NCBI GenBank assembly: GCA_014281115.1
Contig: JACONQ010000007.1
Coordinates: 62,001 to 126,000 of the forward strand
Source of the DNA: Laburnicola sp. R22_1
Taxonomy: Eukaryota; Ascomycota; Dothideomycetes; Pleosporales; Didymosphaeriaceae
Length of the DNA stretch: 64,000 bases
Direction: 5' to 3'
Shown: positions 33,445 through 56,267 of the stretch, in pieces
Layout of the letters: every line of letters starts with the position of its first letter
How positions within the stretch are numbered: position 1 is the first letter of the stretch
The notes under the pieces: model-generated
Databases searched by the model: none
What the model was told of the DNA's origin: nothing
What the model saw: only the letters and a program-made list of their open reading frames with translations
Position numbers and translations under genes: made by a program

Positions 33445-33723
33445 ATGGACCCGATTGACGCAGCTGTTGAAGCTTTGAGATCCCTGAAGCTAGGAGAACG
33501 TCCTAATATATCTCAGGTTGCGCGAGAGTACGGCGTTGAGCGGTCGCGGCTCTCGAAGCGTTTTCGCGGGGTGCAGGGCACCTATGCGTCCTGGACAGAA
33601 GAAAAGCGACTCCTCAACTCTACACAGGAAAAACAGCTACTATAGTACATTAAAAAGCTGTGTACACGAGGCCTACCTCCTACAAGAGAGATGATACGAA
33701 ATTTCGCAGCAGAAATAGCCCAT
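33445..33723 (+). pseudogene. Transposase of element C, N-terminal piece
   Basis: Starts MDPIDAAVEALRSLKLGERP with an HTH_psq motif (YGVERSRLSKRFRGV) and runs through one TAG to RGLPPTREMIRNFAAEIAH, where the 22.5-kb insertion begins. The closest relative in this window is the N-terminus of element E (50038). The reading continues at 56268. Confidence 0.85.
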
Positions 33724-33725
33724 TA

Positions 33726-36077
33726 CAGTACTTTGCAAAACCGCCCTCACCCTTTGCGTAAGCGACGATTCTGTACGACCCTCGTCCGCCTAGGATACCC
33801 CTTGCTAGTCTCGGCCAATAGCAGAATGTCGAGATCCACTAGCTCTAAGCGAGCTAGCTCGTAATCACGAAGTACTCTTGTCTGTAAAACAGGTCTAATG
33901 CAATGCTAAAGTAATAAGCTTAATATACAATACAAGGTACACTATATGGCAAGTTACTAATTAGTTGTGCCTTTCGCCTTCCCTTAGCAGCATGTTCTTA
34001 AGCGTACACTCTGCATCAGCATCTGCTCACTCCGCTTCCCACTCTTCTAAGACTGTCAAAGATGACACAAACACGGGGTGACCAGCTTTTAGCACTTGCT
34101 GACGCTGCTGTACACACTGCCTCATTAAGACTATAGCCTCTGCACTCCGAGCTTGTGCTTTCCACGTGAAGGCCAGATTGGCCATGCTGGTCAGCGTGTC
34201 TGGATGGTCCGCTCCCAGCTTCGTCTTGCTCATCTCCATCACTTGCATCTCTAGCTCTTCCGCTGCATCCCACCGCCCTTGAAACCGGTAAGTCGCCGCC
34301 AGATTGGCCATGCTGGTCAGCGTGGAAGGATGGTCCTCTCCCAGGTTCTTCTTGCGAGTCTCCATCACTTGCACCTCCGGCTCTTCCGCTACATCCCACC
34401 GCCCTTGTTTCCAGTAGGTCGACGCCAGATTGGCCATGCTGCTCAGCGTGTCAGGATGGTCCTCTCCCAGCTTCTTCTTGCTCGTCTCCATCACTTGCAC
34501 CTCCAGCTCTTCCGCTGCATCCCACCGCCCTTGAAACCGGTAAGTCGCCGCCAGATTGGCCATGCTGGTCAGCGTGTCTGGATGGTCCGCTCCCAGCTTC
34601 GTCTTGCTCATCTCCATCACTTGCATCTCTAGCTCTTCCGCTGCATCCCACCGCCCTTGAAACCAGTAAGTCGACGCTAGGTTGGCCATGCTAGTCAGCG
34701 TGTTGGGATGGTCCGCTCCCAGCTTCGTCTTGCTTGTCTCTATTACTTGCAGCTCCAGCTTCTCAGCATCGTCCCATCGCCCTTGATTCCTGTATGTCGA
34801 CGCTAGGTTGTTCATGCTACCTAGCGTGTCAGGATGGTCCGCTCCTAGCTTCGTCTTACGAGTCTCCATCACTTGCACCTCCAGCTTCTCGGCATCGTCC
34901 CATCGCCCTTGATCACGGTATGTCGACGCTAGGTTGGCCATGCTAGTCAGCGTGTCGGGATGGTCCGCTCCCAGCTTCGTCTTGCTTGTCTCTATTACTT
35001 GCACAAACAGCGTCTCGCCATCGTCCCACCGCCCTCCAAGTATATATGCTAATCCGACCATTGCCACACTACACAGCGTGTCCTCGTGCTCTTGACCTAG
35101 CACTTTCTTTCGTGCCCTCATCGACTTCATAGCCAGCCTCTCAGCATCAGCTATGCTGCCTTTCATCCATGCATACCATGCTGCACGATAAAGTACCGTA
35201 GCCCACTCTGCTAGCGACGACTCTGCATCTGGCTGATGTCCTACAGCCGACTTAGCATGCGCGAACAGTGCCTGACATGCCGCCCAGTTCTCGTATGCTC
35301 CTGTCGGAAACGCTGCGCACAGGTTACTAACAAACTGCTGCTTCCACCGCTCAAGCTTGCTGTTACCCTCGAGCCATTTCCGCGTTGCTAGCTGCACTAG
35401 TGCATGCATCTCAAAGCTCGTGCCAGTAGTGTCGACAGAAATGAAGCAGAAATTACGCAGCACTGCTACAGCAGCTTCAAACTCGTCGTCACCCGCGCTA
35501 GACTGCGATGTGTTGTCTTCTAAGTCGCTATCTCCATCATCGTCCTCCTTCTCTTCCTGATCTGTCTGGGCTTCTTCTCGTTCGGTGCGAGGCCTAAGTA
35601 AAGCCTCTGGAATACCTTGTCGGTCGAAGAAGCTCATCAGCGAGAGCAGGTCTGCTGCGGATGGCCGTGTCTGCTGTATATACTCGAACGAGATCTGCCA
35701 GGTAACAACGATTGAGTTCTTCGCCTCCCAGTCTCGCCGCAGCTGTCCTTCGTCGTAGTCGAGGAGGCTTGTCTTCTTACGCTCGCTCTTCCTGTACTCA
35801 GCCAGGTACTTTGCCACAGAGCATCGCGGCGCCCTCTGCGAGATGTACGCTGCTGCTTGCACGATGGCGAGCGGCATGTACTCTAGCGCCGCGGCCAGCT
35901 CAGCAACATTGCTGCCGTCTGCCTGTGGTCCCAGCTTCTTTTCCAGCAAGGCTAGCGCCTGCGCCTCGCTCATCGGCTCCAGCACGATAATGTCGCGCTG
36001 CTCCACTAGCTTCAGTGCCGCCTCTTTGTTTCGCGTTGTGATGAGGATCGAGCCGAGTTCGCAGTGAGGAAGGTACT
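33726..36077 (+). repeat. Left long inverted arm of the 22.5-kb element
   Basis: Homologous in inverse orientation to 54643-56265. It covers about 300 bp of non-coding terminus and the NLR 3' part. It is longer than the right arm because it has about five more 126-bp TPR-coding units and lacks the 103-bp deletion. Identity outside the repeats looks near 90% by eye, with mostly transitions. Confidence 0.8.
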
Positions 36078-36302
36078 CGCGCAGTGGTCTAGCTGCCATC
36101 TTCGAGCTAGCAGCTTGAGCTTCGAGAAGAAAGCCAGCATCGTCCACATTGTCTAGCACGAGCAGCCACCGCTGCTTACAGTCGCACAACCAGTCGTGCA
36201 CCAGCTGAAAGATGTTCGCCTGCGGATCTCGCCGCCCAGAGATCTTGACCCGATCGGCGATAACGCGGTAGCTCTCCCTGAACCGATCGGCGTTGCTGGC
36301 CA
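34027..36302 (-). pseudogene. NLR-type protein (NB-ARC + TPR array), 5'-truncated
   Basis: A frame of about 750 codons without stops on the minus strand. It begins inside the NB-ARC domain (ASNADRFRESYRVIADR), so the P-loop and any N-terminal effector domain are missing, and no ATG opens it. Walker B (RWLLVLDNVDD), the TTRN motif (SILITTRNKEAALKL) and the GLPLA-like EYMPLAIVQAAAYI are present. Then come a winged-helix-like region, an acidic linker, and eight to nine 42-residue tetratricopeptide units (LGADHPDTLTSMANLASTY ...) almost identical to each other. Fungal NLRs of this layout act in non-self recognition and programmed cell death; function here is lost or doubtful. The break at about 36302 meets an oppositely oriented NLR 5' fragment. 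Confidence 0.85.
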
Positions 36303-36360
36303 CCTGGTGAGTTGCGGGATCAGCCCTAGCTCTACCGGTAGAGGGCCCGAGCAAGCGCTA

Positions 36361-36835
36361 ACAGACCCCGCCTCAAGAGCGGCCAGAGACTCCACCATCC
36401 CCATCCATAGTGATACCTTTCCCCCGCGACGCCGACTTTGTTGAGCGAGGCACGACGCTCGACCAGCTCCAGCAGAGATGCGCTGCGCCGGACGGGCGGG
36501 CTGCGCTCGTCGGCCTAGGCGGCGTAGGGTAAGCAGACGCCTGCTCAGCCAGCACTATGCGCTAACGGCAGAGAAGCAAGTCGCAGCTCGCCATCAAGCA
36601 TGCTTACCGCACCTACAAGCAGTCGCCCGAGACGTGGGTGTTCTGGGTGCATGCCAGCAACGCCGATCGGTTCAGGGAGAGCTACCGCGTCATCGCCGAC
36701 CGGGTCAAGATCGCTGGGCGACGAGACCCGCAGGCGAACATCTTCAAGCTGGTGCACGACTGGCTGTGCGACTGCAAGCAGCGGTGGCTGCTCGTGCTAG
36801 ACAATGTGGACGACGCTCACTTTCTTCTTAGCGGT
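36361..36835 (+). pseudogene. NLR 5' fragment with P-loop (head-to-head with the left NLR)
   Basis: On the plus strand an exon after a CTAACAG acceptor reads TPPQERPETPPSPSI, then FVERGTTLDQLQQRC and the P-loop start LVGLGGVG; a 45-nt intron (about 36529-36573, GTAAGC donor) splits the P-loop, and SQLAIKHAYRTYKQSPETW follows. It continues through the RNBS region to LLVLDNVDDAHFLL and stops at about 36835 where other DNA begins. It overlaps the left NLR by about 70 residues at high similarity, so it derives from another copy rather than from a simple inversion. Only the first third of NB-ARC is present. Confidence 0.8.
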
Positions 36836-36839
36836 CAGG

Positions 36840-38197
36840 CAGACGGCGTCGGTCAGGGCCAAGCCACCAACGCGCAAGCCAGGCCTATGCCACGGTCCAG
36901 CACGAACAGCGCTATCCAAGCTCGCTCTCTTCTGCGGAGCAACATTTTGCCCAGCTCGGATGTGGATTCGACGTCTTCGAAGCCATCCATGGCCAACGCT
37001 TTCTTCGCGTCAAGGCAATGGCCTTTCGGGACGCGTTTGAGTACATCTTGATCGAACGATGACGACGGAATGATAATCTTGTTGAGCGACAGGTCCAAGG
37101 CTATGCTTAACGCTGTTGACATGTACAGTCCAGTGTCGTCGTCTCCGGCATTCGCACCGGGATGCATCCAAGGCACATTGACCATAAAAGCGATGACGAT
37201 TTCGACTGAACGGAACCTCCTCGCAATCACTTGTTCAGCCATAAACTTCCTGTGCACAAGCAAGCGTTTGCACATGGCGGCAGCTGCTGGCAAGAATAGG
37301 GATGATGCCGCCAAGAGCGAAGTCAGAAGAAATGCTGACTGTCTGCGGCAGAACGCTACAGTATGAGTCGCCTTATCTGAGCCCCAACGTGTATGTGCTA
37401 GTTTTTCGTGATAGCTGAAACCCCGAGTTAGCCTTTCCCGATAAAAGTCGACGATTTCTTGCCATTACGGATCGTTCATGGATGCTAGTGCCGAGACCAC
37501 GGCGTGTTGAAGACGGAAGATTTATGATGGACTTACAATGACAGTAACAGCTCAGCTTCTTCTACCGTCACCAAGCCGAGATCGATCGGATCGTACGTAG
37601 GGCCGCGGTCCAGGCTGGCCTTGATTGGAAGGAAGAATCGATGGACATCTGACTGCTGGTCCACGTCGCCACCCAAATGAGATGTAGATGTGGTAAACAA
37701 GCTCTCGATAGTCTGCGCCGAAGCCAAACGTAGATCTGATGCGCGAGCAAGCAGTTGAAGAGGGTTCTCAGCATCATCCAGGGGCTGCGGGTCCTCGTTT
37801 ACATGTGCCACTTCGTCCGAAGCTGCCGGAACGCTGTCGGAAGGGCTACTAGCTGAGGAAGCCCGACTTCCTTGTGCTTCTAGGAGGAGCTGCTGCAGCT
37901 GTTCCACGGTCTTCTCGCCTGCATCTGGGTCTGACTTGGACTTCTTGATCGCCTCTTCAATATGATGGAGCGCCTTTTCAAGCCCAGTCCGCTTACTAGC
38001 ACAAGTCAGAGACACTCAGGAAGGTGATATACGACTTACTTCCTGACGCCTTTCTGCCTTCCGATATGAAAACCATCTGGTATAACGCACGCAGACCCCG
38101 AATGCAAGCACTTCTCGCAAACGTCGGCTCCAGGGCCCCGTTTGCATCGGATCTTGCTCCTTCGGCAGGCGAGACAAGCAGCCTGTTTGGTCGACAT
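36840..38197 (-). pseudogene. Zn2Cys6 fungal transcription factor, 3'-truncated
   Basis: Three exons on the minus strand: 38197-38040, 37995-37537, 37414 to about 36840. The zinc cluster is CLACRRSKIRCKRGPGADVC plus two further Cys (Cys8, 11, 18, 27, 30, 37), followed by a coiled, acidic linker and the start of the fungal transcription-factor domain: FYHEKLAHTRWGSD, SAFLLTSLLAASSLFLPA and RERAWIALFVLDRGIGLA. Introns are 44 and 122 nt and join in frame. Homology stops after LDRGIGLACA at about 36850, next to the NLR fragment, so perhaps the last third of the protein is missing. The target pathway cannot be told. Whether it is transcribed is unknown. Confidence 0.75.
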
Positions 38198-39704
38198 TGT
38201 CGCAGGGAAAATTAACCTCTCTGTTGTGGAACTCCCATGGATCCTTTTGGTGACTTGCGCTGCGACATGTATAGCTGGTGGGAGATGGCGCGGGAATAAG
38301 CGGTGTTGGTACCAGTATGGCTAGAAAACCCAGACATGCAGCGAGCATGTAGGACGTGATACTGCTCAGCCCCATTCATAGCGTCATGCGCTGATGCTAA
38401 CCTTGACAGGCCGCGAAGCTGTACACGTTGGCGGTGAAGATGTTGGAGCGCCCGTCCGACGTCAAGTATAAGGGCCAGCTGAGTCATGGTGACTAGCGCA
38501 GCCCCGCGTCCACCGACGCTCTTGCAATCTCAGTCTGACGTTGGTCTCATCAATCTGGTTTTCTGAAGCGCCACATTATTCACATCTTCGTGTTCGTTGG
38601 TGCGTTCTCGCGCTGTGCCGCAAGATGTGGCATCGCGTACGGGTACGCACATCACGCTTACTCTAACTTGCAAGGACCGCCTAGTCATCTTCAACCTTGG
38701 TAGGCCGTCATTCGTCAGGTTGGCTGGTACCCTGGATGGTCGATAGTAGATACATGGAAACATGGCCTGAGCGGAATCTGTTCCGAAGGATAATCCTTTA
38801 GTATTTAAAATCCTTAAATACAAGACCGACGGATGGCAGATTACGGTGCTAAGGCATAGCTATAAGAGAAGTCGTTTATACAGTTCTCTCTTGCGCGTAG
38901 CACATCAGGAATCGCGCAGCACATCAGGAGAGCACATCAAGTCCCTCTCTAACAAGGCTACGAGACCCACATATTGATTCGCACCGCATCGCAGCACACG
39001 AAGGGGCATCGGAATACCTATCCGCCTGCGTCCCCCAGATCGTATCAGGTTGGCCGGTACCCTGGATGGCTGCCTTCTTTCGAGGTGTTCGATGCCAGCC
39101 ATGGCGACGGACGATACTTTCGGCCTTCGCCCTGCTGACGGCTGACAGTGGGATCTGTGTTACAAGAATACCCGTATAAATTGACGTACAACGAACCGCA
39201 TCTAGATAATTGTAGGTAAGGCTTCCTGCTATACCTACCTCCATCAGTACATAGCTAAGCACCCAAACTCAGCACTAGTCCAACGCTAACCAATTAATGT
39301 GAAGCTGTGGGTACCTACTTACCCTACGTGGCTAGGCTAGCGCGGTTCGTTGTACGCCAATTTCTAGGGTACAACGCTGACGGGCAAAAGGAACGTATAG
39401 TGCTTTGCGTGCTGTGGTGTAAGGGATAGGTCACCCCCAGTACCTAATCGATGGGGGCACGGGATCGATGAGTAAGCCGATCACGTGTCTAGGGACTTGA
39501 GGTGTCATCATCGGGTAGGCAGGCCTCCAATCGTCAGCCATCACACAGGACGATAGCGGAATCAGTGGTAGCTACTTAACTCACTCATCGATTGCGAATT
39601 CTATCGAGCATCTTATGTTTTATCTCACAGCACGAACCCTGGAAGAGTAAAAGCTCTGGTTCTGCGGTCATATACTCTATATTGTCTCTCTTTATCTAAT
39701 TACT
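38198..39704. other. Non-coding stretch with short dispersed repeat
   Basis: No full gene was found. A plus-strand exon-like piece after a CCTTGACAG acceptor (38409-38490, reading KLYTLAVKMLERPSDVKYKG) may be a gene scrap. The word GGTACCCTGGATGG with its flanks occurs twice (about 38728 and 39056), and GCGCGGTTCGTTGTACGCC-like sequence near 39340 suggests further repeat relics. The rest is unremarkable. Confidence 0.4.
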
Positions 39705-40384
39705 TTAGCTTTTTAAATTATTAAACCACCTTCCGTAAGATACCTCTAACTTCGCTTCAGGAACTTTTCTAGCATCTGGCGTACCCGCGACTGCGATTAA
39801 CATCATGCTAAGAAGCACGACTGTACAGAACGCGAAAAGCAACCCACTAATCCATCGAAGTCTTGGCAACACCATAAAGATAAACGCTAACATGGCCTCA
39901 ATCGCACACACCCCAGAGATTACGGAGCCTTGATTATTAAGTTAGCTTTCCTCTCCGCAGACTTTGCCGTCTTCGTAAAGGGCGCGGGACACTCACGGTT
40001 CTTTGTTGCGTCAAAATTAGGATTCCGCTTTATATTCATTCGCGTCGTCCGGCTACCGACCTCTTTGTACAGCACCCATCCGGCCTGGTCTCCAAAGACG
40101 CTGAAAAACATGTGTACTGGATAGGTGCGTAGCTCGCGCCCCGAACCGACCGTCCAAAGGCTGGCTATGTTGCGTGACGCTTCAGATTCGACTCCGTATT
40201 GCGTGCACAGGACGTCCGTGAGAAACGCGCGGACTTCCACCGACGTTGCACTTTCTGAAGGCAGTGGAGGGTCGTTGGACGCGCATATCAAGCTGTCCGC
40301 CTGCTTGTTGTTGTGATCTGCGTTTTCTAGGTCACTCCGCGTGCCCGTGCCTGTGGGCTCGGCCGTGTGGGCTTGGGCCGCCAT
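39705..40384 (-). CDS. Small two-exon membrane protein, unknown family
   Basis: Exons 40384-39997 and 39928-39705 join across a 68-nt intron (GTGAGT donor, GCTAAC branch, ATCAAG acceptor) to give about 203 aa. The N-terminal about 125 residues are soluble-looking and mixed. The second exon encodes two hydrophobic segments (IEAMLAFIFMVLPRL and GLLFAFCTVVLLSMMLIAVA), then a short tail ending RWFNNLKS. The pattern of a soluble domain plus terminal membrane helices recalls several fungal DUF families, but I do not recognise it. It is the only cargo gene in the 22.5-kb segment that looks intact. Its promoter is cut 86 bp upstream by the 797-bp repeat array. Confidence 0.55.
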
Positions 40385-40901
40385 GGCTGTTACGAAATGA
40401 CGACGAGAACGGTCAAGGGAGTGGACAGCTTCGCTCTCTTTAAGCGGTTGACAGCACCTGCACTGCCTCATGCCTCTCCACTTTCGAGGATACATGCCAA
40501 GCCATCCGCGCGAAACGTACTCTACCGTGGCTCGGCAGGGTGCCTAATCAGCGCGCCAAGGCACATGCAACTACTATCCTGGGGTGGCGAGGAAGAACGG
40601 CACCGCACGCGACGTCACCACAAACCTCTAGTAAGGGAGTTGTTCGCAGGCAGGTTAATAAGCAATTGTGAGCAGGTTAATAAGGGCCTACTTTTGCTAT
40701 ATAGCTAACTATTTTATCTTAGCACCCTTGCAAAGGATCCCACTAGAGATCCACCTATGCATTGCCTTACTAAAATTCTAAAACTTGTTAACTTTGAAGG
40801 CTGTTTTATCTTTGAAAAATATAGTTTTTTCTTTAAATTTTCTGGCATTGATAAGAATGGACCTTTAGTTGATAAGAAACAATTTTTTTAATAACTTTTT
40901 T

Positions 40902-41070
40902 TGTAAGCAGTTGGGTAGTATGTGTAGAAAGTGTATATCGTAGAAGTATCTGTGTTCAGATGTGTATATGCCTGTGTATCGTACATGGAGTGATTAGAGG
41001 CTCGTATATAGTAGGCGAGCTAACTTATAAGACTAATGTTGTTATGTGACATAGCTCTAGGCTGCTTACA
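40902..41070 (-). repeat. Copia LTR (3' LTR in element orientation)
   Basis: 169 bp, near-identical to 46373-46541. Lies next to the polypurine tract. Confidence 0.88.
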
Positions 41071-41479
41071 CACCCCCTTCAGGTTTGAACGCATATTTAA
41101 AGCTAATGTTGGCTATAGGTCCCCCTCTGCCTTTGTGTGGCAGCTGCATTTAGGTTAAGAACTAGTCTCTGTATTGGTGCAGTCCTAGGTAGGTAGCCGT
41201 CCGCTATCGCAGTGTTAGTGGACCTCGCTCTATACTACAGGCGTCCCTGATAGTAGGACGTCTCCTAGAGCTAGTATTAAGATCCTTATTGCTTTGCGTT
41301 CTGTGCTGAGGTTGATAAGCCTTGTAGGTGGAGCTTGATACATAATGCGAGCATGTTTGCTCTATATATAAAGGTAAAATACAGCGTAAAGCTAAGTACA
41401 TAATAGAGCTAAGTAAAGTGTAGGGGTATAGCGTAGAGCTGTGTACAGGATAGAGCTTAGTAAATATATAGCCTCGTTA

Positions 41480-44400
41480 AACCTGTAAAAACCACATGGG
41501 AGAAACCAGGAAGAGTACTATACTGTAGGGAAGCTCATTTAGAAGGAAATGGTTAAAAATAAAGAAGAGAAACCCAGTTTTCGTGCTTCTGCCTAGGTAG
41601 CAGCTTGGTGAGGCCGTTAGCTGGTTGACAGCTTGTCTGGATGTATGAGAGGTTGATGTTGTTAGATTGAGCTTCTTGGCGTAGCCAGTAATGATGGATA
41701 TCGACGTGCCGTATAGTAGTCTTAAGACGAGGCGTAGTAGAGGTGAGAAGCTGGATAGTCTGCTGATTGTCACAGTATAGAAGGCGTTCATGATCTGGAT
41801 CAAAGCCAATTTGTTCAAAGACTCTCCACCACTAGATCAGTTCGGTGCCTGCAGACGATGCGGCGACCAGCTCTGCTTCTGTAGTGGACTTGGTGATACA
41901 GCGTTGGAGTGTTGCTTTCTAGTCTATAGGTCCGCCAAATAGGAAGAAGATGTAGCCTTGTGAGCTCTTGCGTGTGATCTTATTATCGGCGTACGACGCA
42001 TCTGTTGCTCCAAAGAACTTAGGCTGAGTCTGGTTAGCTATATAGACTAATTCGTTTAAGATAGAGGCTGTGTAGTAGAGAGCTCGATCTTTGGTGCCTA
42101 GTAGGTAGGCGATTGTCTGGTAGGCTGCGTTGAGATGACGTGAAGATGGATTTGTGAGAAACTTAGCTAGTTTAGAATGAGCTTTCGAGACATTAGGTTA
42201 GGTAGCTCTAGCCGCGTAGCCTATAGAGCCTACAAGCTGGGCATATCTGTGCTTAGTAAAGTCATTTGCCTAATCCTTGGACGGTAATAGCTCTTCTAGA
42301 GGTAGTGGGGTAGCTGGTAACTTTGTGTATAGCTTTGGTGAAGGATACTTCTGTGCCAGCTTCTTAATATATAAAGCTTGTGATAGCCAGATAGAGCTAT
42401 TCTTACGGTCTCTATGCGTTTGAATGCCACAGAACGTTTAAAGCTCTCCTAGAGATCGAATCTCATATTGGCGCAGGAGCTTCTGCTCGAATTTATGTAG
42501 TGCAGCCTTGTGGGCTGGTAGGCAGAGTACAACAATGTCATCCACATAGAAGAAGACTAGAAGCTTGTCATTCTTCCATAGACAAGGAACGTCTTTGACT
42601 TCGCGTAGGCCTAGCTTAGTAAGCGTCTTAATAAGCTCTTAATACCAGAGTAGTGGTGAGGTCTTTAGGCCGTATAGAGCTCGACGTAGTCTCCATAGAT
42701 AGTTAGGGTTAGAGAATCCTTCTAGTGAGTGACAATAGACTGGTGTCACGAGCTGAGCGTTTGTAAATGCGTTGACAGCATTATATTAACGGATTTCTAT
42801 GTTAAAGTAGGCAGCTATAGCAACTAGAGCTCAGAATATTCGAACCGCTAGAGTGGCTGCGTAGGTATCCTCAGTAGTCGCCTGTAGATCGCCTCGTACG
42901 CAGATACGGGCCTTATATTTCGTAAGGTAGCTTTGATCATCAAGCTTGTACTTGAAGACCCACATTAATGGGAGGACCTCTTGGTCTTGCGGGTTGAACT
43001 CCTACCAGGTAATCCTCTCATATGTGCCTTTTTGCTTCACGTTGCTAATTTCTTATTTCATAGCCTAGAGGAAGCCTTCCCTGTGTGGAGATGGCATTTT
43101 CATCACATCTCTATAGAGACGCGGCTCAGAAGGTAGCTCGGTGTAGTGAAATCGTGTTTTTGATGCTGTAGCTAAGGCTGCTACGTATGCTGACCAGTAT
43201 GTGCTAATAAAGAAGCTGCTACTCTTCTAAGATGGCTTTCTAGATCTTGTTGACCCTTTAGGTAGTATGTAAGACTGACGAAGGTTGCTATTAATTAGTT
43301 CTCGATTCTCTGCTTGGTTCGAGTCCGTTTATAAGACAGAATCTGATGTTTCACGTTTGCGCTTCTTTGAAGATGTGGATAGCGGCAGTGAGCTAGTTGG
43401 TGTAGCTGATAGTGAGCATGGTGAGTTGTTATGAGGTGAGCCCCGTGAGCTGCTGTGAACCTCAGTAGTCTCTGTTCGACTCGGTGTTGGAAGCTGCTAA
43501 TAGTAACTTCTTGTCTAGTGTTAGGTTGTTGTTACTCTTTGCGTCAATTGGCTTTGCTCTATAATAGCAGCAGTCTAGCTAGACTGGTCTAGATCTGATG
43601 TGAGCTTGTCTTTAGATGAATCTTCTATAGAGCTGTCTTGGCTGCGTATTAAAGGTAGTTGATACTTGTGGGCGAATTGCTCTAGCTTAGAGCCTTGTAG
43701 GAGCGGATCTGCTTCATTGTGTGGTTGATAGAAGAGGTCTTCTCGGAAGGTAATGTCTCTCACACGAATGACTTTGCCTCTATAAGCTCGGCTTCTCGCC
43801 TTGGGCATCTAGATTTGGTAGATGTTTGACGAGTTGTAGCCAACTAGGTATCCTACTAAAGCTCGAGGACTGAGCTTGTCTGTTTATGGTATCTGCTTGC
43901 GCAGTGCGTATGCTTGGCAGCCATAGACGCGTAGGTGAGCAATTGACGGTTTCTTGCTGTAGGCAATTTCGAATGGTGTTTTCCAGCCTAGTAATCGCGT
44001 GGGTGTGCGATTGAGCAGGTATGCTGCTGTGGGGTAGATCTTAGAGCCAAGTGCTAGAGGTAGGTTTAAGGTGATCCTTATTGAACGACTTCTCTCAATA
44101 AGACTCCTGCCTGAGCGCTCTGCTAAGCCGTTCTGCTCTTTAGTGTGTGGAGCTCTGATCTGTAGCTTGATGCCTTCTCTCTGACAGTAGTCTCTAGCAG
44201 AGTTGTCTGCCAGGCCATATCCTCGCTCATCGTTAGCAATGAGAAAGGTGACAGTTGTGTTGAATTCTTGTTTAATCGTTCGATCTAGTCGTCTAATAAT
44301 AGATAGTAGCGTAGGCTTGTCTCGTCTAGGTATTGTGTAGACGAAATGGAACTTCGAGAATAGGTCAAACCCATAGAAGATATATCAATCACCGTTGTAG

Positions 44401-46290
44401 GCTCTTGTGTCAAGCTTAATTAGGTCGATAGCGATAGTTTTAAAGGCTCGGGTTGCCCCTATCTTATGGCCTATTTGACGCGAGATAATCTGATGTGCTT
44501 TGCTTTGTAGGTATTCTTCGCAGTCAACTGTTTGAGGAGCAGTTCCAGTAGCTGGCTGTATGCCTGTTACGTGACTTGACAGTTGGTCAATCGCATTATT
44601 ACTTGGATGTCTTATAAGGATATGGAGCTGGGCCTTGCTTAGCGATCTTGATTTAGGCGGTAGGGCTGAGTACTGTGGCCAATGTTGATGGGTAGCGAAT
44701 GTTTGAAGCTGAGTAGATTGGGTAGATGGAGGATCAGTTCGATGGACTACTAGCCAGTGACCACCTAGCCTAGTGAGGCTAGCAATGTCTTCAACTCGTG
44801 ACCCTGATAAGTTGGACCAATATAGAGTGTTTCTTCCTGAGTCGAAATGGACGTTTAACAATAATAGTTGGGCTAGAGAGACTAGGCTTGTAAAGAAGCT
44901 TGGTATTAAGGCGACGCGCTTAAGCTTTGTCTTTCTCTATCCTTAAGGCGTTGATAGGAGTATCTCAACTTCTCCCCATGCCTGAATAGCCATCTCTGTG
45001 CCTCCTGCGAGGACAACATCGTCTGGCGATGCAGGAGCCTTCCATTGGAACTTGGTAGGATTGTTGCAGATGTGGATATTAGTGGCTGGATCTAGCGTCC
45101 ATAAGTGGAGGAGCGGGAAGTGTTATAGCGTTGGCCCGTTATTAAATGCTGATGAGTAGACAGCGTAGGCTTTATGGGGAAGGTCGGCTGTAGGTGCATC
45201 GCCTGCGTCGATTTCTATCGAATTAGGTTCTGACCCGTGGCTCCCTTAAACCCTACGCTTCTTATAGCGCTGATTCTTTTCCCGAATCTTGTTTAGTATG
45301 CCTTTCGTATCCTTGGCTTCGTATTTAACTATCTTCTTGGCTTTTTTAGGGTTTTCGACGAATCCTCCTCTGCGCTGTGAGGTGTTGATGTACGGACACT
45401 GTCCCCAATAGTGTAGATCCCTACAGAGACATAGCTTTGATGGCTTTGATGGCTTGTCCTGATAAGGTCTCTTTCTGTTGTTTTGTCTATATGGAGACTC
45501 CTCTTGATTCAATGTAGCTGCAAATGCTTCGCCTTGGATAGTTGATTTTGTTGCGGTCGTACGATAGTAGCGCAGGTATCCTGCTAGTAGTTCAGGTAGT
45601 GTTGGCTGGATAGAGTCGCTATCTGAGGCAGTTGAGATAGTTTCCGCGTTGAATACTGTGATGGCGATAGTAGCAGCGTAGCCAGGGTCGATCTGCCTAA
45701 TAGCTCGAATGAGGTCCTTGTGACGTTGGTAGCTATGCGTCTCTAGTAGCTTGAGTTGTTTAGCCCTATTGTAGGCAGCAAGAAAGGTGCTACACTACTC
45801 CTCTAGATTCTCTCTACAAGCATGCAGTACTTTAGCAGTATTGTAGGCTTTCTGGACCTAATATTCTTAATCAGCTGTTGTAGGGCTGTAGAGCTCCTGT
45901 AGCATCTTGAGCTGATCGTGGAGGGACTTTTGGTCCTTGATTTGATAGACTAGGTCCTGAGTAATAGTGTTAGCTACGTGCGCTTTAATTTGGCCAATCT
46001 TATCTTTAGTTCGTCTGTATTCCTTAAGCTCCCTATAGTAGAGACTTATTTCCTGATTGTACTGCGCTCGAGCTTCAGTAGTAGGTTCTGTCGCTGGCGA
46101 TCCGTCTTTATTGACAGTTTGAAGCTGGGCAGGTTGCTAAGGCTTGCTGAGCGTCGATGGGGGTGACAGATCTGGATTAATATATCCCCATACGTCTCCA
46201 GCCTCTGCGAGCCTTTTGACAGTATAGATCCATAGTTCCCAGTTGTGTGGACCGTGAAGGATGATCGAAGAGCTGGCCTTTAACATGGCA
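41480..46290 (-). pseudogene. Gag-Pol polyprotein of the copia element, broken
   Basis: Pieces in gag-PR-IN-RT-RH order on the minus strand: a CCHC-type knuckle (CLCRDLHYWGQCPY) near 45400-45430, a GAG-pre-integrase-like segment at 44385-44861, an integrase C-terminal piece (RVRDITFREDLF) near 43730, the reverse-transcriptase YVDD motif at 42537-42548, and RNase H remnants near 41500-41820. IN before RT identifies the copia order. Stops and frameshifts are frequent. Confidence 0.8.
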
Positions 46291-46372
46291 AGATAGAGTA
46301 GGCTCGATCAACGGATAGGTAGGTAGGGAGTCAATGTATGTATATAAGTGCGGATTAGGCCGGGCTTATAAC

Positions 46373-46541
46373 TGTAAGCAGTTGGGTAGTATGTGTAGAA
46401 AGTGTATATTGTAGAAGTATCTGTGTTCAGATGTGTATATGCCTGTGTATCGTACATGGAGTGATCAGAGGCTCGTATATAGTAGGCGAGCTGACTCATG
46501 AGACTAATGTCGTCATGTGACATAGCTCTAGGCTGCTTACA
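46373..46541 (-). repeat. Copia LTR (5' LTR in element orientation)
   Basis: 169 bp; TG...CA ends; differs from the other LTR only by transitions. Confidence 0.88.
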
Positions 46542-46691
46542 TTTTTTTCTTTAAAAGTTGGTGGTTGTAGGATAATTAAAAAAGGTGGCCTTATTAACCT
46601 GCCCACAATTGCTTATTGACCTGCCTACAAACAAGTCCCCTCTAGCAAGTAGTTATTTCTAAGGATAACATTTTATATGCAGTAGTGCTGG

Positions 46692-46932
46692 TGTCAGATA
46701 GACGGTCACTGTGCATTCCAGTGATAATTTCTCTGTGAAATACACTGAGGAGGCTGGCGCACTACTGTTTTGCATTGCCCCTGTACTATCCTAGATAGTA
46801 CAAGGGCCTTAGCATAGATAGAAACTTCTCGCGATAGCTGGGCTTCTCCATCACAATAAAAAAAAATCATCACAGTCATCAATTCTCATTAATATATTAT
46901 CTTAAAGTGACAGAACACTATCAAATCTGACA
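46692..46932. mobile_element. Solo LTR
   Basis: 241 bp from TGTCAGAT to ATCTGACA, flanked by a 5-bp duplication GCTGG (46687-46691 and 46933-46937). It interrupts the first 797-bp unit; the second unit shows the empty site. No internal coding region. A solo LTR is the simplest reading. Confidence 0.7.
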
Positions 46933-47322
46933 GCTGGCACTATTGCCACGTCCTTTTAGGTATAATCTTTCTTTAGGAAGAAGCAAGCAAGCTTTACTAT
47001 GCAATGCAACGCAGAGTTAAGTCCGCCTTATTACTCTAGCTATTTCTAAGTTATCCTTTTAACAACAAGTGCTTACCTGCCCTCTTTATCCGCACACTTT
47101 TGCTAACTAGATTGCTTGACTGGCACAGGTTCCGCGGTTAAGTCAGAGCGCTCCTTTATGCCTCTCCACTTTCGAGGATACATACCAAGCCATCTACGCG
47201 AAACATACTCTACTATGGCTTGGCAGGGTGCCTAATTGGCGCGCCAAGGCATATGCAACTACTATCCTAGGGTGGCGAGGAAGAATGGCACCACACGCAA
47301 CGTCACTACAAACCTCTAGCAA

Positions 47323-47682
47323 GGGAGTTGTTTGCAGGCAGGTTAATAAGCAATTGTGAGCAGGTTAATAAGGGCCTACTTTTGCTATATAGCTAACTAT
47401 TTTATCTTAGCACCCTTGCAAAGGATCCCACTAGAGATCCACCTATGCATTGCCTTACTAAAATTCTAAAACTTGTTAACTTTAAAGGCTGTTTTATCTT
47501 CGAAAAATATGGTTTTTTCTTTAAATTTTCTGGCATTAATAAGAACGGACCTTTAGTTAATAAGAAACAATTTTTTTAATGACTTTTTTTTCTTTAAAAG
47601 TTGGTGGTTGTAGGATGATTAAAAAAGGTGGCCTTATTAACCTGTCCGCGATTGCTTATTAACCTGCCCGCAAACAAGTCCC
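47323..47682. mobile_element. Mutator-like MITE within the 797-bp unit
   Basis: A 360-bp non-coding element with inverted repeats of about 50 bp (GGGAGTTGTTTGCAGGCAGG at the left, GGGACTTGTTTGCGGGCAGG inverted at the right) and a 9-bp duplication CTCTAGCAA (47314-47322, 47683-47691), which is typical of Mutator-like elements. It is present at the same place in all three units, so it inserted before the tandem amplification. Confidence 0.75.
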
Positions 47683-48009
47683 CTCTAGCAAGCAGCTGTT
47701 TCTAAGGATAACATTTTATATACAGTAGTGCCGGCACTGTTGCCACGTCTTTTTAGGCATAATCTTTCTTTAGAAAGGAGCGAGTAAGCTTTACTATGCA
47801 ATGCAACGCAGAGTTAAGTCCGCCCTATCACTCTAGCTATTTCTAAGTTATCCTTTTAACAATAAGTGCTTACCTGCCCTCTTTATCCGCACACTTTTGC
47901 TAACTAGATTGCTCGGCTGGCACAGGTTCCGCGGTTAAGTTGGAGCGCTCCTTTATGCCTCTCCACTTTCGAGGATACATGCCAAGCCATCCGCGCGAAA
48001 CGTACTCTA

Positions 48010-50125
48010 CCCGTTTTTCTCGCCTGACGCACGGGCTCACCTGGCGCACGGTTTTTGCCGAACATTGTCAAATGCTTTTGAAGCTACTGAGCCTCACACA
48101 AATCTCTATATCGTCTAATTTTGAACAGTAGTAGGCAATTAAGTATGGCGAAAAAGTCTACTTGATTATCTAATCACGATATCTTGTAGGGAGGTTGATA
48201 TGCCGCCCCCGACGATTTGTCGCCTGCGGGGCCTCAATGACCTTAACAACCAATTGCTCGCTGCCACAAACCTCCTAAGGGACAATAGACTGCTGCTTCC
48301 TTGCTTTTCTAGCCTGTTTAGCAAATTAGATGTCCTTTTGAAGCTGCGTAGCAGCAAGCCGAGCCTGTCTATTGTCCTCCTTTTCCTGCTGCTTCTGCGC
48401 TTGCTCTTGAAGCCGGATCTCCTTTGCAGTAGCCTTTATACGACGCCTCTCCTCTAAAGCTTGTTGCTTCTCGGCTTTCTTAATTGCCTTGCGCTGACTA
48501 TCCTCCTCTTTTTGGAGCCTCTCTGCCTCTGCTGCCTCTGCCTTTTGAGTTTCACGCTCACGCGCTAGCTGCACCTTGTTTGGGCTCCAAAAGATAGCAC
48601 CACTATCCTGAACTAGAGGCTGCTTAAGCTGGAGCGCTTTGCCTCTCTTCCGACGCTTCTTCTTGTTAACTAGCGCTTTTTTGAGGCCTTGAACCTTAAG
48701 TTTTAATATTATATTTTAAGTAGAGAGCGAGTGGATTGTTTGTGAGAGCAGCTTAGCCTTAGAGTTGTATACGTCGTCAACAACTGCTTGTAGAATCTTA
48801 GTAACCTTCCTCCAATCGTCAGCCGTAAGGACAGACCTCGAGCTCTCGCTGGATGATGGTCTCTTAGCCTTAGTGTGGCTAAATCGTTCTAAGATGACCT
48901 CTGGCTTGAAGGGGTGAAGGCCACACAATTTAAAGCTAGAGAGGATATTCTTTGCAGTAAAAGCTTTCTCCCACGCAGTCTAGAACATGCGAAAGAAGTC
49001 TCGCTTAGTAAGTGCAGAGAAGGCTTGAGATTCCTCCATAAATCGTGCTACCTCGTACGAGTAGGCTTGTGAGAGTGGCCTGAACAGAGTGACGTCAAGC
49101 GGCTGCAGCGTATGAGTACTATGAGGAGGATAGACTGCTAGGAGGATCTTGTTGTCGTCGCAGTACTTAATAAACTTCATATTGATGTGGGAGCCATGGC
49201 TATCGAGGATAAGCAGTCGATACTGTCGCGGTTGAACCTTTAATTTAGTCTCTCGATCAAAGATAGTCTTTAACCATTGAAGCCTAAGGTTATCGTTCGT
49301 CCATCCGCTAGGAGAGGAAGCAAAGAAGGCCGTGTGTATTGTAGGATTAAAATCCTGCAGCCATAAGTCTTGAATATTGCCCGAGACAGCCTGGTAGATA
49401 AGGCCTAGGGATAGAGACGATCCATCAGCGCATATGCAAGCAATTGTCGTAATCCATTCACGATTGCCGTCCTAAATCATTTGCCTAGTTCCCCCCTCCT
49501 CATACCTCCGTCGAGAGAACACCCGCTTCATCTTTAATAGTACGCCGATGAGGAAGCCCTTCTCGTCCATATTGTAGGTGTGCTGTGGCTCAATCTCGTA
49601 CTGCTCGATCTTACGCTTTAAGAGCTCGAAATAGAGTGCGTACTTGAAGGCAGAATCAGCTCTCTTCCTATCCTTGTCCATGCCATTTGTCTATTTTAAT
49701 ACTAGGTCGAGATAGTGACGCTTAATGAACCAATCCAGCCAAGAGCTTCCCGCTTGTTTGCCGCTTATTTCAGTAGCAAAGTTGCGTAGCATGTTTCTCG
49801 TAGGCGGTAGCCCTCGCTGGCAGAGCTCGTCAACGTATTGTACCAGCTCTAGCTCCTGACGGTCGTTGAGAAGTCGTTGATTCTCATATTGGGCTGCACG
49901 GGAGCCCTGTACACCGCGCCACCTTCGCGATAGCGTAGATCGTTCAACACCATACTTTTTTGCTGTCTGCGCGATATTAACTTTTCCTCCAAGCTCCAAG
50001 GATTTCAAAGATGCCAGCGCCTGCTCAATCGGGTCCATATTGGTGGAGCTACATCTATTTCAATTGTGGGGATTTTTGGAAAAGTGTGCGTCAGGTGAGC
50101 CCGTGCGTCAAGCGAGAAAAACGGG
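48010..50125 (-). mobile_element. Pogo/Fot1-like DNA transposon E, in the third 797-bp unit
   Basis: A 2116-bp element flanked by TA (48008-48009, 50126-50127). The termini start CCCGTTTTTCTCGC and contain two CTGACGCACGG-like words 17 bp apart. The empty site is readable from the first two 797-bp units (CTCTAC-TGTGGC). Confidence 0.9.
48170..50038 (-). pseudogene. Transposase of element E (pogo/Fot1 DDE type), mildly decayed
   Basis: Starts MDPIEQALASLKSLELGGKV at 50038; HTH_psq (YGVERSTLSRRWRGV), CENP-B HTH (RGLPPTRNMLRNFATEI), YNMDEKGFLIGV, LLILDSHGSHINMKF and THTLQPLDVTLFRPL with the acidic triad positions kept. A Gln/Lys/Glu-rich coiled tail leads to a family-typical INLPTRYRD end at 48170, reached only with a frameshift. 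A handful of TAG/TAA stops interrupt it, mostly where relatives have Trp or Gln. Confidence 0.85.
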
Positions 50126-50870
50126 TACTGTGGCTTGGCAGGGTGCCTGATTAGCGCGCCAAGGCACATGCAACTACTATCCTGGGGTGGCAAGGAAGAA
50201 CAGCACCGTACGCGACGTTACTATAAACCTCTAGCAAGGGAGTTGTTCGCAGGTAGGTTAATAAGTAATTGTAAGCAGGTTAATAAGGGCCTACTTTTGC
50301 TATATAGCTAACTATTTTATCTTAGCACTCTTGTAAAGGATCCCACTAGAGATCCACCTATGCATTGCCTTACTAAAATTCTAAAACTTGTTAACTTTGA
50401 AGGCTGTTTTATCTTTGAAAAATATGGTTTTTTCTTTAAATTTTCTAGTATTAATAAGAACGGACCTTTAGTTGATAAGAAACAATTTTTTTGATGACTT
50501 TTTTTTCTTTAAAAGTTGGTGGTTGTAGGATGATTAAAAAAGGTGGCCTTATTAACCTGCCCGCGATTGCTTATTAACCTGCCCGCGAACAAGTCCCCTC
50601 TAGTAAGTAGCTGTTTCTGAGGATAACATTTCATGTGTAGTAGTGCCGGCACCGTCGCCACGTCCTTTTAGGCATAATCTTTCTTTAGGAAGGAGCGAGC
50701 AAGCTTCACTATGCAATGCAACGCAGAGTTGAGTCCGCCCTATCACTCTAGCTGTTTCTAAGTCATCCTTTCAACAACAAGTGCTTACCTGCCCTCTTTA
50801 TCCGCACACTTTTGCTAACCGGATTGCTCGGTCGGCACAGGTTCCGCGGTTAAGTCGGAGCGCTCCTTCA

Positions 50871-51287
50871 TGCCCGTACAGTACGGCTTCTCTATTCTCG
50901 TCATGATCAACGACCTGAACAGATCATCCGACAGACACTTCCCATATCTTCAGGGCGTAATACGGCTCGCTTGCAATGCTTCCTCCAATGGGGTTTCGGG
51001 AATACGTTACTCAAGAGCGACTTACAGGGAAGGCGCATCGATCGAGGTCTTGATATCTTGGAGGATATCTTGGAGTTCTATCGCTTGATCGCGATGATAC
51101 GGCGCATCTGCGCCGTCGGCAGTTGGAAAGGTCTTGAAACTGGGCCTGGGACGAGGTATAAAGGAAGAGCCAAAATGCCAGCAATCCATCGGAAACGCAA
51201 CCCCATCCTCAATCCACTCTCACACCACTCTCTATCTCAAACGTCCACGAACTCGACTTCTCCAGACAAATTCGTGCCTTCGGTACA
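50871..51287 (+). promoter_or_regulatory. Promoter of the secreted-protein gene
   Basis: Unique sequence from the end of the 797-bp array to the ATG. A TATA-like word (GTATAAAGG) lies near 51155-51163, about 130 bp before the ATG, and a CACTCTCTATCTC pyrimidine leader follows. Confidence 0.5.
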
Positions 51288-52472
51288 ATGGTCTTCCTGC
51301 ATGTGGCACGGCTTCTGGCCTTTACCAATACGGTTGCTGGCTTCTCTTTGACATTCTACAAAGGCGATTAATGTCGCGGTGAACGGCTTGGTGGCTTCGA
51401 CGTCTCGATTGAAGACGGCTGCGTACCCGACGATTTCTATAGCACGCCTTCTTCATCAGTCACCATCACTCCACAAGACGGGGACCAGCCCGACCACATG
51501 CTGTACTTCTTCGAAGGCGACACTTGCGATATAAACAACCCTGCTAATCCTGTTGCTGGCGGTAACACGGGCTGTATCAATGTCGGATTCGGCAGGAACG
51601 ATTTCTCAGCCGTCAGAGTCTTCGGTGGAGGCGGAAGTCCACAGCAAGTCGCCTCGCGCAGGACGCGCACGGCGGGCAATAGACGAGTCGCTCCTCGCAG
51701 GGCACGATCGGTGGGCGAGCTCCAGCACGGCGATGTTTTTGAGCAAGACGGCAAGGACTACCGCTGGCAGCAGATTGCCCGTGGCACCTTCACCGGGGTG
51801 CCTACGGAAGAATGGGATACCGCATTTCGAGTGATGAACGATGAGCCCCTGATCTTCAATGCAAGCTATCCTTTCAACTTTGAGGAGTACTACATGGCCA
51901 ACCCCAATATGGCACCCCGAAGTCGAACTCAGAATGATAGCCCAGGTATGTCCCTCGCCGAACGACCTGACGCTATGCTTCTCCCCGACGGACTGCTCCC
52001 TTTCTGTCGACGCGCGTACGAATGCGTCGTATATCTCCCCTGGGCTGCCAGCATATACTTCCCCGCCCAGACAGAGTACGTCGTCAATGCCATAGAAGCG
52101 GCACGTACCCAGGCCACCCTAGAAAACCTCTGGAACTTCCTCCTGCAGCCCGTCATCATCCCCCTCGCCACAGGTGTCACTACGGGCTACATCTCCGCCC
52201 AGCACTTTTCCTCAGGCTCCGCCAGTGAAGTGCCAAGCACCTGCTCTCAAGCAGAAGACACCGCCGTACTGGCTGCACTGATCAATAGCGGCGCCGTCAC
52301 CGAAGACCAAGTCAACGCTGTGCGTGCCGAAATCTACGACTCCAACGCTGCACAGGCAGCGACGATTGCCGTGGCCATCGTGCCGGAGTACGTCAACAGC
52401 GGGAACCAAATCTGCGGTGCACCGGTCATGCGCAACACGCTTGTTGCAGCTACTGGTATCACGCGGAAATAG
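51288..52472 (+). pseudogene. Predicted secreted protein, one premature stop
   Basis: ATG 51288 opens a hydrophobic signal-peptide-like start (MVFLHVARLLAF... up to about residue 20), but the 28th codon (51369-51371) is TAA. Past that stop the same frame is open for 366 codons to 52472. The body has spaced Cys residues (for example in GDTCDINN, TGCINVGF, FCRRAYECVV), an Arg-rich segment (RRTRTAGNRRVAPRRAR) and a hydrophobic Ala/Ile-rich C-terminal third. The stop lies where a single C-to-T change at a CA site would make TAA from a Gln codon. I do not recognise the family. Secretion is inferred only from the N-terminus; use as an effector is speculation. Confidence 0.55.
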
Positions 52473-53826: not shown

Positions 53827-54066
53827 CTACGCAACCCCATCCCCCAACTCAACATACAACCTAAGTTCCTTCTCCAGCATAACATCGTACACCTTCCTCA
53901 GATCCTCCCTTTCCAGAAACTCCTCTCCCAACCGCGTAAAGGCCATCATCATGTAATCCTTACACCACGGCAAACAAGTCAACCCCTTAAAAAACGTCTC
54001 TCTAACTCTCCGACACGCCTCATCCACCTTGACATCCTCCTTCCTCTGCTTTCCATCGTAATCTAG
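53827..54066 (-). pseudogene. C-terminal gene fragment (possibly NRDE-2-like)
   Basis: A frame from about 54066 (after a CCTAG acceptor-like site) to 53827 reads DEACRRVRETFFKGL, CLPWCKDYMMMAF and DLRKVYDVMLEKELRLYVEL. This resembles the last exon of a larger protein; the ending resembles C-termini of fungal NRDE-2-domain (RNA silencing/splicing) proteins, recalled with low confidence. Nothing of the rest of such a gene is next to it, so it looks like a captured or left-over fragment. Confidence 0.35.
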
Positions 54067-54234
54067 GCTAAAAATATGGACGGATTAGGATCTCTGCCAA
54101 CGCGTGACAAGGGGTCAGAAGCGGCCCACTCCCAAGATAGCCCTCCTTTTTTCGGAAGCACAATCGCGTTTTGATATATAGTAGCGTTCCACAGACTCGA
54201 CAGAATCCATCTCATACCCTGCACGCCTGCAGCC

Positions 54235-54642
54235 ATGGCGGAGCAGCCGGCCAGAGACCGAAACAAACAGCTAAAGAAACGATTGCGCGGATTGGAGAAC
54301 AAGGTTTACCAGTATGGAGAGCTGGGCGTCGACGTCGCATTGGTCATAGGTTTTCGGGAGAAAGAGGGCGGCTATTCTTATACAACTTCAGAGGAATTCT
54401 TGCAGAGGATCTCGCAGATCGTAAGTGTTCTTAGCCAATTGCCTACGACTTTCTAATGCCAGCAAACAGCGATCGCATCCTAAGTGCGTAAATCGACTTC
54501 CCGAAGATATAAAGAGAATGGATGCACAATCCGGTTCAAACACCACGCGCCAGATCAAAAAGAGGAGGAAAAGAGCCAGGAGAGTTAACGCATTGGAGCA
54601 ATCACCATCAAACACGACATTGGGCCAAACTGCGGCACAGGA
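54235..54642 (+). pseudogene. MADS-box-like gene fused to NLR sequence
   Basis: Exon 1 54235-54420 and exon 2 from 54470, joined over a 49-nt intron (GTAAGT, ending AAACAG). Exon 1 encodes RDRNKQLKKRLRGLENKVYQ and ELGVDVALVIGFREKEGG, the pattern of short fungal SRF/MADS-type DNA-binding proteins; exon 2 adds CVNRLPEDIKRM and a basic patch KKRRKRARR. At about 54643 the sequence turns into NLR coding DNA in a different frame, so the original 3' end has been replaced. The chimeric reading ends at TGA 54707-54709. Confidence 0.5.
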
Positions 54643-56028
54643 CAGTACCTTCCCCGCTGCGAGCGCGGCTCGATCCTCGTCACGACGCGAAACGAGGAAG
54701 CCGCCCTGAAGCTGGTCGAGCGGCGCGACATTGTTCGTGTAGAGCCGATGGACGAGGCAGAGGGCCTAGCGCTGTTTGAGAAGAAGCTAGGACCGCAGGG
54801 CAATAACAGCGATGCTGCCAAACTCGCAGCAGTGCTTGAGTACATGCCGCTCGCTATCGTGCAGGCTGCTGCGTACATCTTGCAGAGAGCGCCGCGATGC
54901 TCTGTAGCCAAGTACCTGGACGAGTACAGGAAGAGCGAGCGTAAGCGAACCAGCCTCCTTAACTACGACGAAGGACACCTTCATCGCGACTGGGAGGCAA
55001 AGAACTCGATCATTGTCACGTGGCAGATCTCGTTCGAGTATATACAGCAGACACGGTCGTCAGCAGCGGACCTGCTCTCGCTCATGAGCTTCTTCGACCG
55101 ACAAGGTATTCCAGAGGATCTACTCCGGCTCCGCACTAAAAGACAAGAAGCCGAGTCCAACCAGACGGAGAGGGTGGAAAATGAGGGAAATAGCGACTCA
55201 GAGGACGATGCATCGCAGTCTAGCGCGGGCGATGACGAGTTTGGAGACGATGTGGTGGTGCTGCGAAACTTCTGCTTCATATCTACTGATGCTGGTGGGA
55301 CCATATTCGAAATGCATGCACTAGTGCAGCTAGCGACCCGGAAGTGGCTCGAAAAGACCAGCAAGCTTGAGCAGTGGAAGCAGCAGTTTGTCAGCAATCT
55401 TTGTGCAGCGTTTCCGACTGGACAGTACGAGAACTGGGCAGCATGTCAAACACTCTATGCACATGCTAAGGCCGCTAGAAAGCAGCAACCTAAAGACGAG
55501 TCGTCGATAGCAGAGTGGGCGACGGTGCTCTACCGTGCAGCGTGGTATGCGGAGAGGACAGGAAACATTGCTGATGCTGAGATCCTAGCTACAAAGGCAA
55601 TGGAAGCGCGGAAGAAGGTGCTAGGGCAGGAGCACGAGGATACGCTGTGGAGTGTAGCTATGGTTGGGCTAGCATACAAGCTTGGAGGCCGATGGGACGA
55701 TGCGGAAGAGCTGGAGGTGCAAGTGATGGAGACTCGCAAGAAGAAGCTGGGAGAGGACCATCCTTCCACGCTGACCAGCATGGCCAATCTAGCATCGACC
55801 TACTGGAATCAAGGGCGGTGGGATGTAGCGGAAGAGCTGGAGGTGCAAGTGATGGAGACTCGCAAGAAGAAGCTGGGAGCGGACCATCCTTCCACGCTGA
55901 CCAGCATGGCCAACCTGGCCTTCACGTGGAAAGCACAAGCTCAGAGTGGGAAGCGGAGTGAGCAGACGCTGATGCAGAGTATACGCTTAAGGACATGCTG
56001 CTACTGTAAGGGAAGGCGAAAGGCATAA
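54643..56028 (+). pseudogene. NLR-type protein (NB-ARC + TPR), both ends damaged
   Basis: Begins mid NB-ARC (YLPRCERGSILVTTRNEEAAL), continues through EYMPLAIVQAAAYI, the winged-helix region and an acidic linker, to three TPR units, against eight to nine in the left copy. The P-loop half is absent. Near the 3' end a 103-bp deletion between GAGTG repeats shifts the frame, replacing the normal end (the left copy ends VLEEWEAE) with an unrelated tail to 56028. The frame is otherwise open. It forms most of the right arm of the 22.5-kb element. Confidence 0.82.
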
Positions 56029-56265
56029 CTAAGTTAGTGCCTTGCAACATATTGTACCTTGTATCGTATATTAAGCTTATCACTTCAGTGCATTAGACCT
56101 GTTTTACAGACAAGAGTATTTCGTGACTACGAGCTAGCTCGCTTAGAGCTAGTGGACTTCGGCAATCCGCTACTGGCCGAGACCAGCAAGGGGTATCCTA
56201 GGCGAACAGGGGTCGTACAGAATCGTCGCTTGCGCAAAGGGTGAGGGCGGTTTTGCAAGGTACTG
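54643..56265 (-). repeat. Right long inverted arm of the 22.5-kb element
   Basis: Inverse counterpart of 33726-36077. Homology begins abruptly at about 54643 (AGTACCTTCC) within a MADS-like gene exon and runs to the terminus at 56265. Confidence 0.8.
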
Positions 56266-56267
56266 TA

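Follow-up and report, generated by a model that had tools for sequence, protein, structure and literature searches.

An NLR-armed, TA-inserting inverted-repeat element in Laburnicola sp. R22_1 and the recurrence of its plan in a second end family

A stretch of 64,000 nucleotides from the genome of Laburnicola sp. R22_1 (C24:62001-126000; hereafter the window) was found to contain a segment of 22,540 bp (window positions 33726-56265), which is bounded by terminal inverted repeats (TIRs) and has long inverted arms made largely of NOD-like receptor (NLR) genes. With a probability of roughly 85%, this segment represents a non-autonomous, TA-inserting TIR DNA transposon carrying NLR genes, which diverge from each other and have their 3′ ends, encoding the tetratricopeptide repeat (TPR) sensor, placed against the terminal repeats. 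The same plan recurs in a second family of elements with different ends; movement in trans, decay of the window copy and copying of sensors between genes would complete this reading. All genomic comparisons were made within the one 63.9-Mb assembly of 26 contigs, for which loci are given as contig:position, and genome-wide match counts represent lower bounds.

The earlier note on this DNA had described CAGTAC(T/C) ends in inverse orientation flanked by TA, and these were confirmed at 33726 (forward strand) and 56265 (reverse strand), their consensus being CAGTAC[T/C]TTGCAAAACCGCC (Table 1). The outer 183 nt of the two arms are 92% complementary, and the arm homology extends from +1 to +2352 in the left arm (A) and from +1 to +1622 in the right arm (B), so that the previously given lengths of 2.35 and 1.62 kb for arms consisting of an NB-ARC/TPR gene are correct. 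In both arms, the 3′ end of the NLR gene faces the terminal repeat and the 5′ part is absent, the two genes being divergently oriented; in arm A, the outermost ~300 bp are non-coding, and the 3′ end of the gene begins just inside. The nucleotide-binding (NB)/TPR portions of the arms are 80% identical over 1,277 aligned nt, and the encoded proteins share 77% identity over 434 residues. Pfam matches to TPR and DUF7779 were obtained for both arms, together with weak matches to NACHT (arm A) and NB-ARC (arm B), both below the curated cut-offs, and no N-terminal effector domain was found by Pfam in either frame. The window arms are truncated NLRs, which lack the full set of effector, nucleotide-binding and repeat parts characterizing a fungal NLR. 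They do not look affected by repeat-induced point mutation (RIP), their TpA/ApT ratios being 0.94 and 1.03; another part of the window (14000-16100), which is AT-rich (GC 0.25, TpA/ApT 1.54), looks RIP-affected.

Insertion of the segment as one unit was deduced from the sequences on its two sides. Removing the segment and one TA, i.e., joining 33001-33725 to 56268-57900, restored a single frame with a few stops, which aligned gap-free at the joint to a pogo-type transposase frame of 466 aa from contig C13, covering its residues 12-463 (43% identity, E 5e-142); taken separately, the left side matches residues 12-108 and the right side residues 115-463 of this reference. Furthermore, a query composed of the joined flanks (180 + 180 bp; 40 out of 570 candidates scored) crossed the joint at at least 38 places (of 41 rows), the best ten matches being 95-98% identical over 360 of 360 bp. 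Given the gap-free joined frame and the contiguous matches elsewhere, the segment was inserted in one piece into a single copy of a repeated pogo-type element: one transposon came to lie within another, TA having been duplicated on entry. The earlier view of a TIR element with NLR arms is supported by these empty-site results. Two further degenerate copies of pogo-type transposases are located just left of the segment (window positions 29605-30942 and 31971-33281).

The same data bear on two explanations that would deprive the segment of its unity. If two short elements resembling miniature inverted-repeat transposable elements (MITEs) had been inserted independently beside two opposite NLR genes, the 22.5 kb would not constitute one mobile unit. 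Two solo copies of the ~185-bp end do exist, and the ends are paired in the window alone; however, the outer flanks are the halves of one pogo-type frame that is contiguous at the 38 or more other places, and A, B and a copy on contig C13 have the same end-to-NLR junction but different outer flanks. Independent insertions, being contradicted by the empty sites, are very improbable indeed. An artefact of assembly at this repeat-rich place is scarcely credible: although arms and flanks are repeats, an exact TA insertion together with a gap-free empty site would have had to arise by chance.

Within one mismatch, the segment's ends were detected at five places in the genome, namely A, B, C13:240700, C20:211067 and C21:1718285; TA precedes all five, and the outer flanks are unrelated. 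The C13 copy has the end and the NLR in common with A and, in addition, 7.1 kb of A's interior sequence. The largest two of the shared pieces (1,434 and 3,780 bp) are identical to 98.4% and the shorter ones to 91-100%; the copy further has inserts of its own. The two remaining copies, on C20 and C21, represent solo ends, in which ~185 bp are followed by TA and unrelated sequence; TA is found at both of their borders, and the far end has no obvious inverted repeat. Counting the C13 half-copy, the end adjoins an NLR at two loci, but paired ends occur in the window only. In total, 24 further matches with two or three mismatches were rejected as ends. Inspection of 14 of them revealed that 11 share one surrounding sequence without a preceding TA, the other three being unrelated single places, likewise without TA, and the 20-base variant of these 11 recurs in nine of the ten remaining matches; by our own reading, this variant lies within a transposase gene. 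C13:251907, considered as the right end of the C13 copy, was also rejected, being this 20-base variant within a 1.3-kb insert with inverted ends.

The second end family (TA followed by ACRTCC) is larger. The element at C26:694043-710617 forms a near-perfect palindrome with arms of 7,569 bp (99.4%), and at C20:2036594-2046935 lies another element, whose inverted arms measure 2,318 bp (96.7%). Both terminate in TA followed by ACATCCGTCCCTGGGTTACCGG and share a terminal module of 1,284 bp (96%), which is joined to different NLRs. A related terminus, TA followed by ACGTCCCTCACTGCG, is found in two further elements, C24:2725107-2731331 (6.2 kb, arms 82%) and C21:1186056-1191398 (5.3 kb, arms of 2,040 bp, 99.8%). 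A search with the terminal module returned 48 rows, 45 of which were used (the three smallest pieces were left out) and merged to 38 copies. Neighbouring copies less than 60 kb apart were convergent in 13 of 14 cases, the exception having both copies on the minus strand, and none of 20,000 strand shuffles reached 13. When the query was limited to the first 130 bp, at least 40 ends were obtained; 16 of 17 neighbour pairs closer than 25 kb were convergent (one with both ends on the plus strand), and six ends were unpaired. The two end lists combined yielded 17 convergent pairs under 25 kb, covering 177 kb or 0.28% of the genome, four of which were read in sequence. A pair of 59.6 kb (C13:202718-262328) falls under the 60-kb limit and stands outside these 17.

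Seven of the 15 NB-ARC hits in the genome are located inside the 17 pairs; the binomial probability of this enrichment (8e-15) takes the hits as independent, though four of the seven belong to copies of one element. This element, carrying a HET-NLR on C24, was copied again on C22 (94-98%), C1 (95-96%) and C13 (91-93%), with both ends reached, i.e., it is present in four copies in all (91-98%). HET matches amounted to 153, and eight of 13 picked by eye among the matches listed lie inside pairs, from which no statistic was drawn. Nine arms, belonging to seven second-family elements, have a TPR match whose start lies 209-301 bp within the terminal module. The C20 element has three empty sites (C8:1633007, C20:3226411 and C13:264438), which match the whole 360-bp query with 97-100% identity. 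The head-to-head NLR locus C7:1371176-1379584 was not counted, as its arms (1,112 bp, 95.8%) end without TA; its interior is 98% identical to the C20 element, and its arm ends differ. Judged by eye, one of the DDE_1 matches listed sits in a pair of this family (C4:777447-777956, within C4:775391-783964); it belongs to a transposase frame of 554 aa, which could be either nested or resident.

Complete NLRs with an N-terminal effector, a nucleotide-binding domain and a repeat array were identified in second-family elements (C20 and C24). The C24 element carries a HET/NB-ARC frame followed by an adjoining TPR frame, over the cut-off, whereas two head-to-head NLRs with frames 0.56 kb apart are located in the C20 element. 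The leftward one encodes HET, NB-ARC and TPR in one frame of 985 aa, all over the cut-off, and the rightward one consists of a SesA frame and a separate NB/TPR frame (972 aa), which are assumed to represent one gene. The NB domains of this pair are only 30% identical, whereas the last 323 residues are 88% identical, without any difference over the final ~75; the shared C-terminal part, comprising the TPR sensors, sits in the inverted arms beside the terminal module. An open HET-NB-ARC-TPR frame of 1,321 aa was also found at the C7 locus. The nearest homologues of the HET-NLR (87%) originate from Bimuria novae-zelandiae and Lentithecium fluviatile. Other genes are carried as well: a DUF6601 frame is present between the arms of the C26 element, and a GRF-type zinc-ribbon frame is partly contained in the arms of the C21 element, so that the cargo of the second family is not restricted to NLRs.

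The observation reported in the earlier note is right, and its interpretation is strengthened by the recurrence of the plan in this second, larger TIR family. With two end families of one genome built alike, mobile DNA seems to carry NLR genes around. Intact members would, by their inverted arms, allow TPR sensor arrays to be copied between two opposed NLRs and between loci, and such copying would make the elements disperse and diversify NLR genes; the window copy, with its truncated NLRs and nested insertions, would be a decayed member. A bolder version treats the elements as cassettes for sensor shuffling, in which the arms are a terminal repeat fused to a TPR array, head-to-head HET/SesA NLRs share one sensor through gene conversion between inverted repeats, and transposition spreads and swaps sensors among loci, the transposon family thereby generating a repertoire for non-self recognition; we put this forward tentatively, rating it as possible rather than probable. 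It is quite conceivable, if somewhat short of an even chance, that the NLRs are instead passive cargo captured once, the arms having arisen when transposition or repair went wrong (palindrome formation) and playing no part in sensor exchange or NLR function. The truncation of the window NLRs, the near-perfect C26 palindrome and the C21 arms, which reach 2,040 bp at 99.8% identity with a zinc-ribbon gene and show that long arms arise without an NLR, suit passive capture. It accords less well with the long open HET-NB-ARC-TPR frames kept in C20 and C7, with one sensor common to two different NLR classes in C20, and with the strong over-representation of NB-ARC in the pairs, even though one element's copies contribute four of the seven hits.

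Several results weigh against the proposed TIR transposon and its recurrence. The exact pair of ends was found in this genome nowhere outside the window segment; the earlier note had named such a result as pointing to chance assembly or misassembly, both of which are excluded by the empty sites. A second arm of the C13 copy was not found in 28 kb read inwards, and there are the two puzzling solo ~185-bp copies, which may be a one-ended or MITE-like form. In the second family, no empty site was found for the C26, C24 and C21 elements among the matches listed for the joined-flank query (40 of 570 candidates scored), no NLR was found in the C21 element, and eight of the 15 NB-ARC hits fall outside the pairs. 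The sharing of sensors is built on one gene pair, that of C20. Finally, no transposase was identified for either end family; for the segment, whose ends occur within one mismatch at five places only, 150 of 2,759 first-look DDE_1 candidates in the genome were scored in the search for an autonomous partner.

The earlier claim that no transposase for these ends lies inside the segment was supported: the one DDE_1 frame found within it (48983-49471) belongs to a separate insertion, a nested pogo-type element with its own TA and with ends differing from those of the segment (Table 1). The nested copia-like and pogo-type elements account for 7.8 kb, which leaves ~14.8 kb of the segment without them. 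No Pfam match was found for the frames at 36856-37464, 37536-38015 and 39923-40543. The 366-aa frame has two database homologues in all, one from a metagenome (94%) and one from Zasmidium cellare (50%).

Table 1. Features of the NLR-armed segment and its insertion site (positions refer to the window).
Feature	Position	Strand	Remarks
5′ part of interrupted pogo-type transposase frame (target)	33436..33725	+	
Left TA target-site duplication copy	33724..33725	.	Empty-site reconstruction and joined-flank matches
Left terminal inverted repeat CAGTACTTTGCAAAACCGCC	33726..33745	+	Begins ~185-bp end module, solo at two further loci
Arm A NLR frame, 776 aa: NB remnant, DUF7779, TPR array of 126-nt units	34030..36357	-	
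Inverted duplicate of arm A NB region, 176 nt, 93%	36653..36828	+	
Interior common to C13 copy	36856..40823	.	Longest piece 3,780 bp at 98.4%
Nested copia-like long terminal repeat (LTR) retrotransposon	40902..46541	.	169-bp LTRs
~1-kb tandem repeat, interrupted by nested elements	46542..50925	.	More repeat copies at 40460-40901
Nested pogo-type element with DDE_1 transposase	48010..50125	-	Own ends CCCGTTTTTCTCG and TA
366-aa open frame, no Pfam match	51372..52469	+	Two database homologues
Arm B NLR frame, 479 aa: NB remnant, DUF7779, TPR	54589..56025	+	Arm homology 54644-56265
Right terminal inverted repeat CAGTACCTTGCAAAACCGCC	56246..56265	-	Reads from 56265
Right TA target-site duplication copy	56266..56267	.	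Empty-site reconstruction and joined-flank matches
3′ part of interrupted pogo-type transposase frame (target)	56268..57342	+	Match reaches 57342

Tc1/mariner elements are characterized by duplication of TA and by short inverted ends beginning with CAGT. The segment resembles non-autonomous members of this group, including pogo/Fot1, in its TA target-site duplication, evident from the single TA of the empty site, and in its terminal inverted repeats starting with CAGT. Because of these two traits, a transposase of the Tc1/mariner or pogo type, supplied in trans, would be the one to move it. It differs from Tc1/mariner elements in lacking a transposase of its own, in its size of 22.5 kb (~14.8 kb without the nested elements) and in having NLR genes as inverted arms. 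Gene-capturing TIR elements of the Pack type carry a host gene between terminal inverted repeats and are moved in trans; here, in contrast, the cargo of two end families repeatedly includes NLRs, which are located in the inverted arms.

Starships, as far as described in the accessible parts of PMC9594970 and PMC12134995, are large fungal mobile elements able to carry HET/NLR genes, and according to the former they do so in this fungal class. Although 88 hits to DUF3435, the domain of the Starship captain, were obtained in the genome, none is present in the window, the nearest (C24:205875) being degenerate and located 87.6 kb right of the right end of the segment; moreover, inverted ends with a TA duplication suit a DDE-type TIR element, and the position of the NLRs in the arms is a further difference from Starships. 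That the segment is itself a Starship (tyrosine-recombinase element) or part of one is therefore very improbable, although it may be located within a larger, decayed one. Both the target of the C20 element and the three sites found empty have a DUF3435 hit at a distance of 56-74 kb (C20:1975914, C8:1689756, C20:3151065 and C13:327699), always on the same side when the strand of the hit is taken into account, and the C20 element may reside within one copy of a multi-copy Starship-like region.

Cargo-carrying TIR elements and NLR-carrying transposons are already known. The Podospora HNWD genes, in the available text of PMC12222747, likewise are NLRs with nearly identical C-terminal repeats; those repeats are WD40, whereas here TPR repeats occur in inverted pairs inside TIR elements. 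The same available text mentions an association with transposable elements in general terms only. According to PMC9815663, transposons can carry fungal NLRs, and for Pyrenochaeta lycopersici, many HET genes, 42 of them near transposable elements, are reported in the part available of PMC6034849. No description of TIR elements with NLR arms emerged from full-text searches, as judged by titles, abstracts and passages, most subscription papers and preprints being outside coverage. TA-inserting elements whose inverted arms are NLR genes, and which recur in one genome, look like a novel variation on these known kinds as far as this literature is searchable.

Fungal NLRs are numerous, fast-evolving and often located near repeats, and in the accessible literature their mobile carriage is tied mainly to Starships. 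The NLR-armed elements of two end families, in each of which one member has empty sites, provide a concrete route for the dispersal and duplication of NLR genes and for the exchange of their repeats. The diversification of the recognition repertoire thus becomes testable at defined loci, by means of filled and empty sites among isolates and of sensor arrays that match the element as opposed to the NB class.

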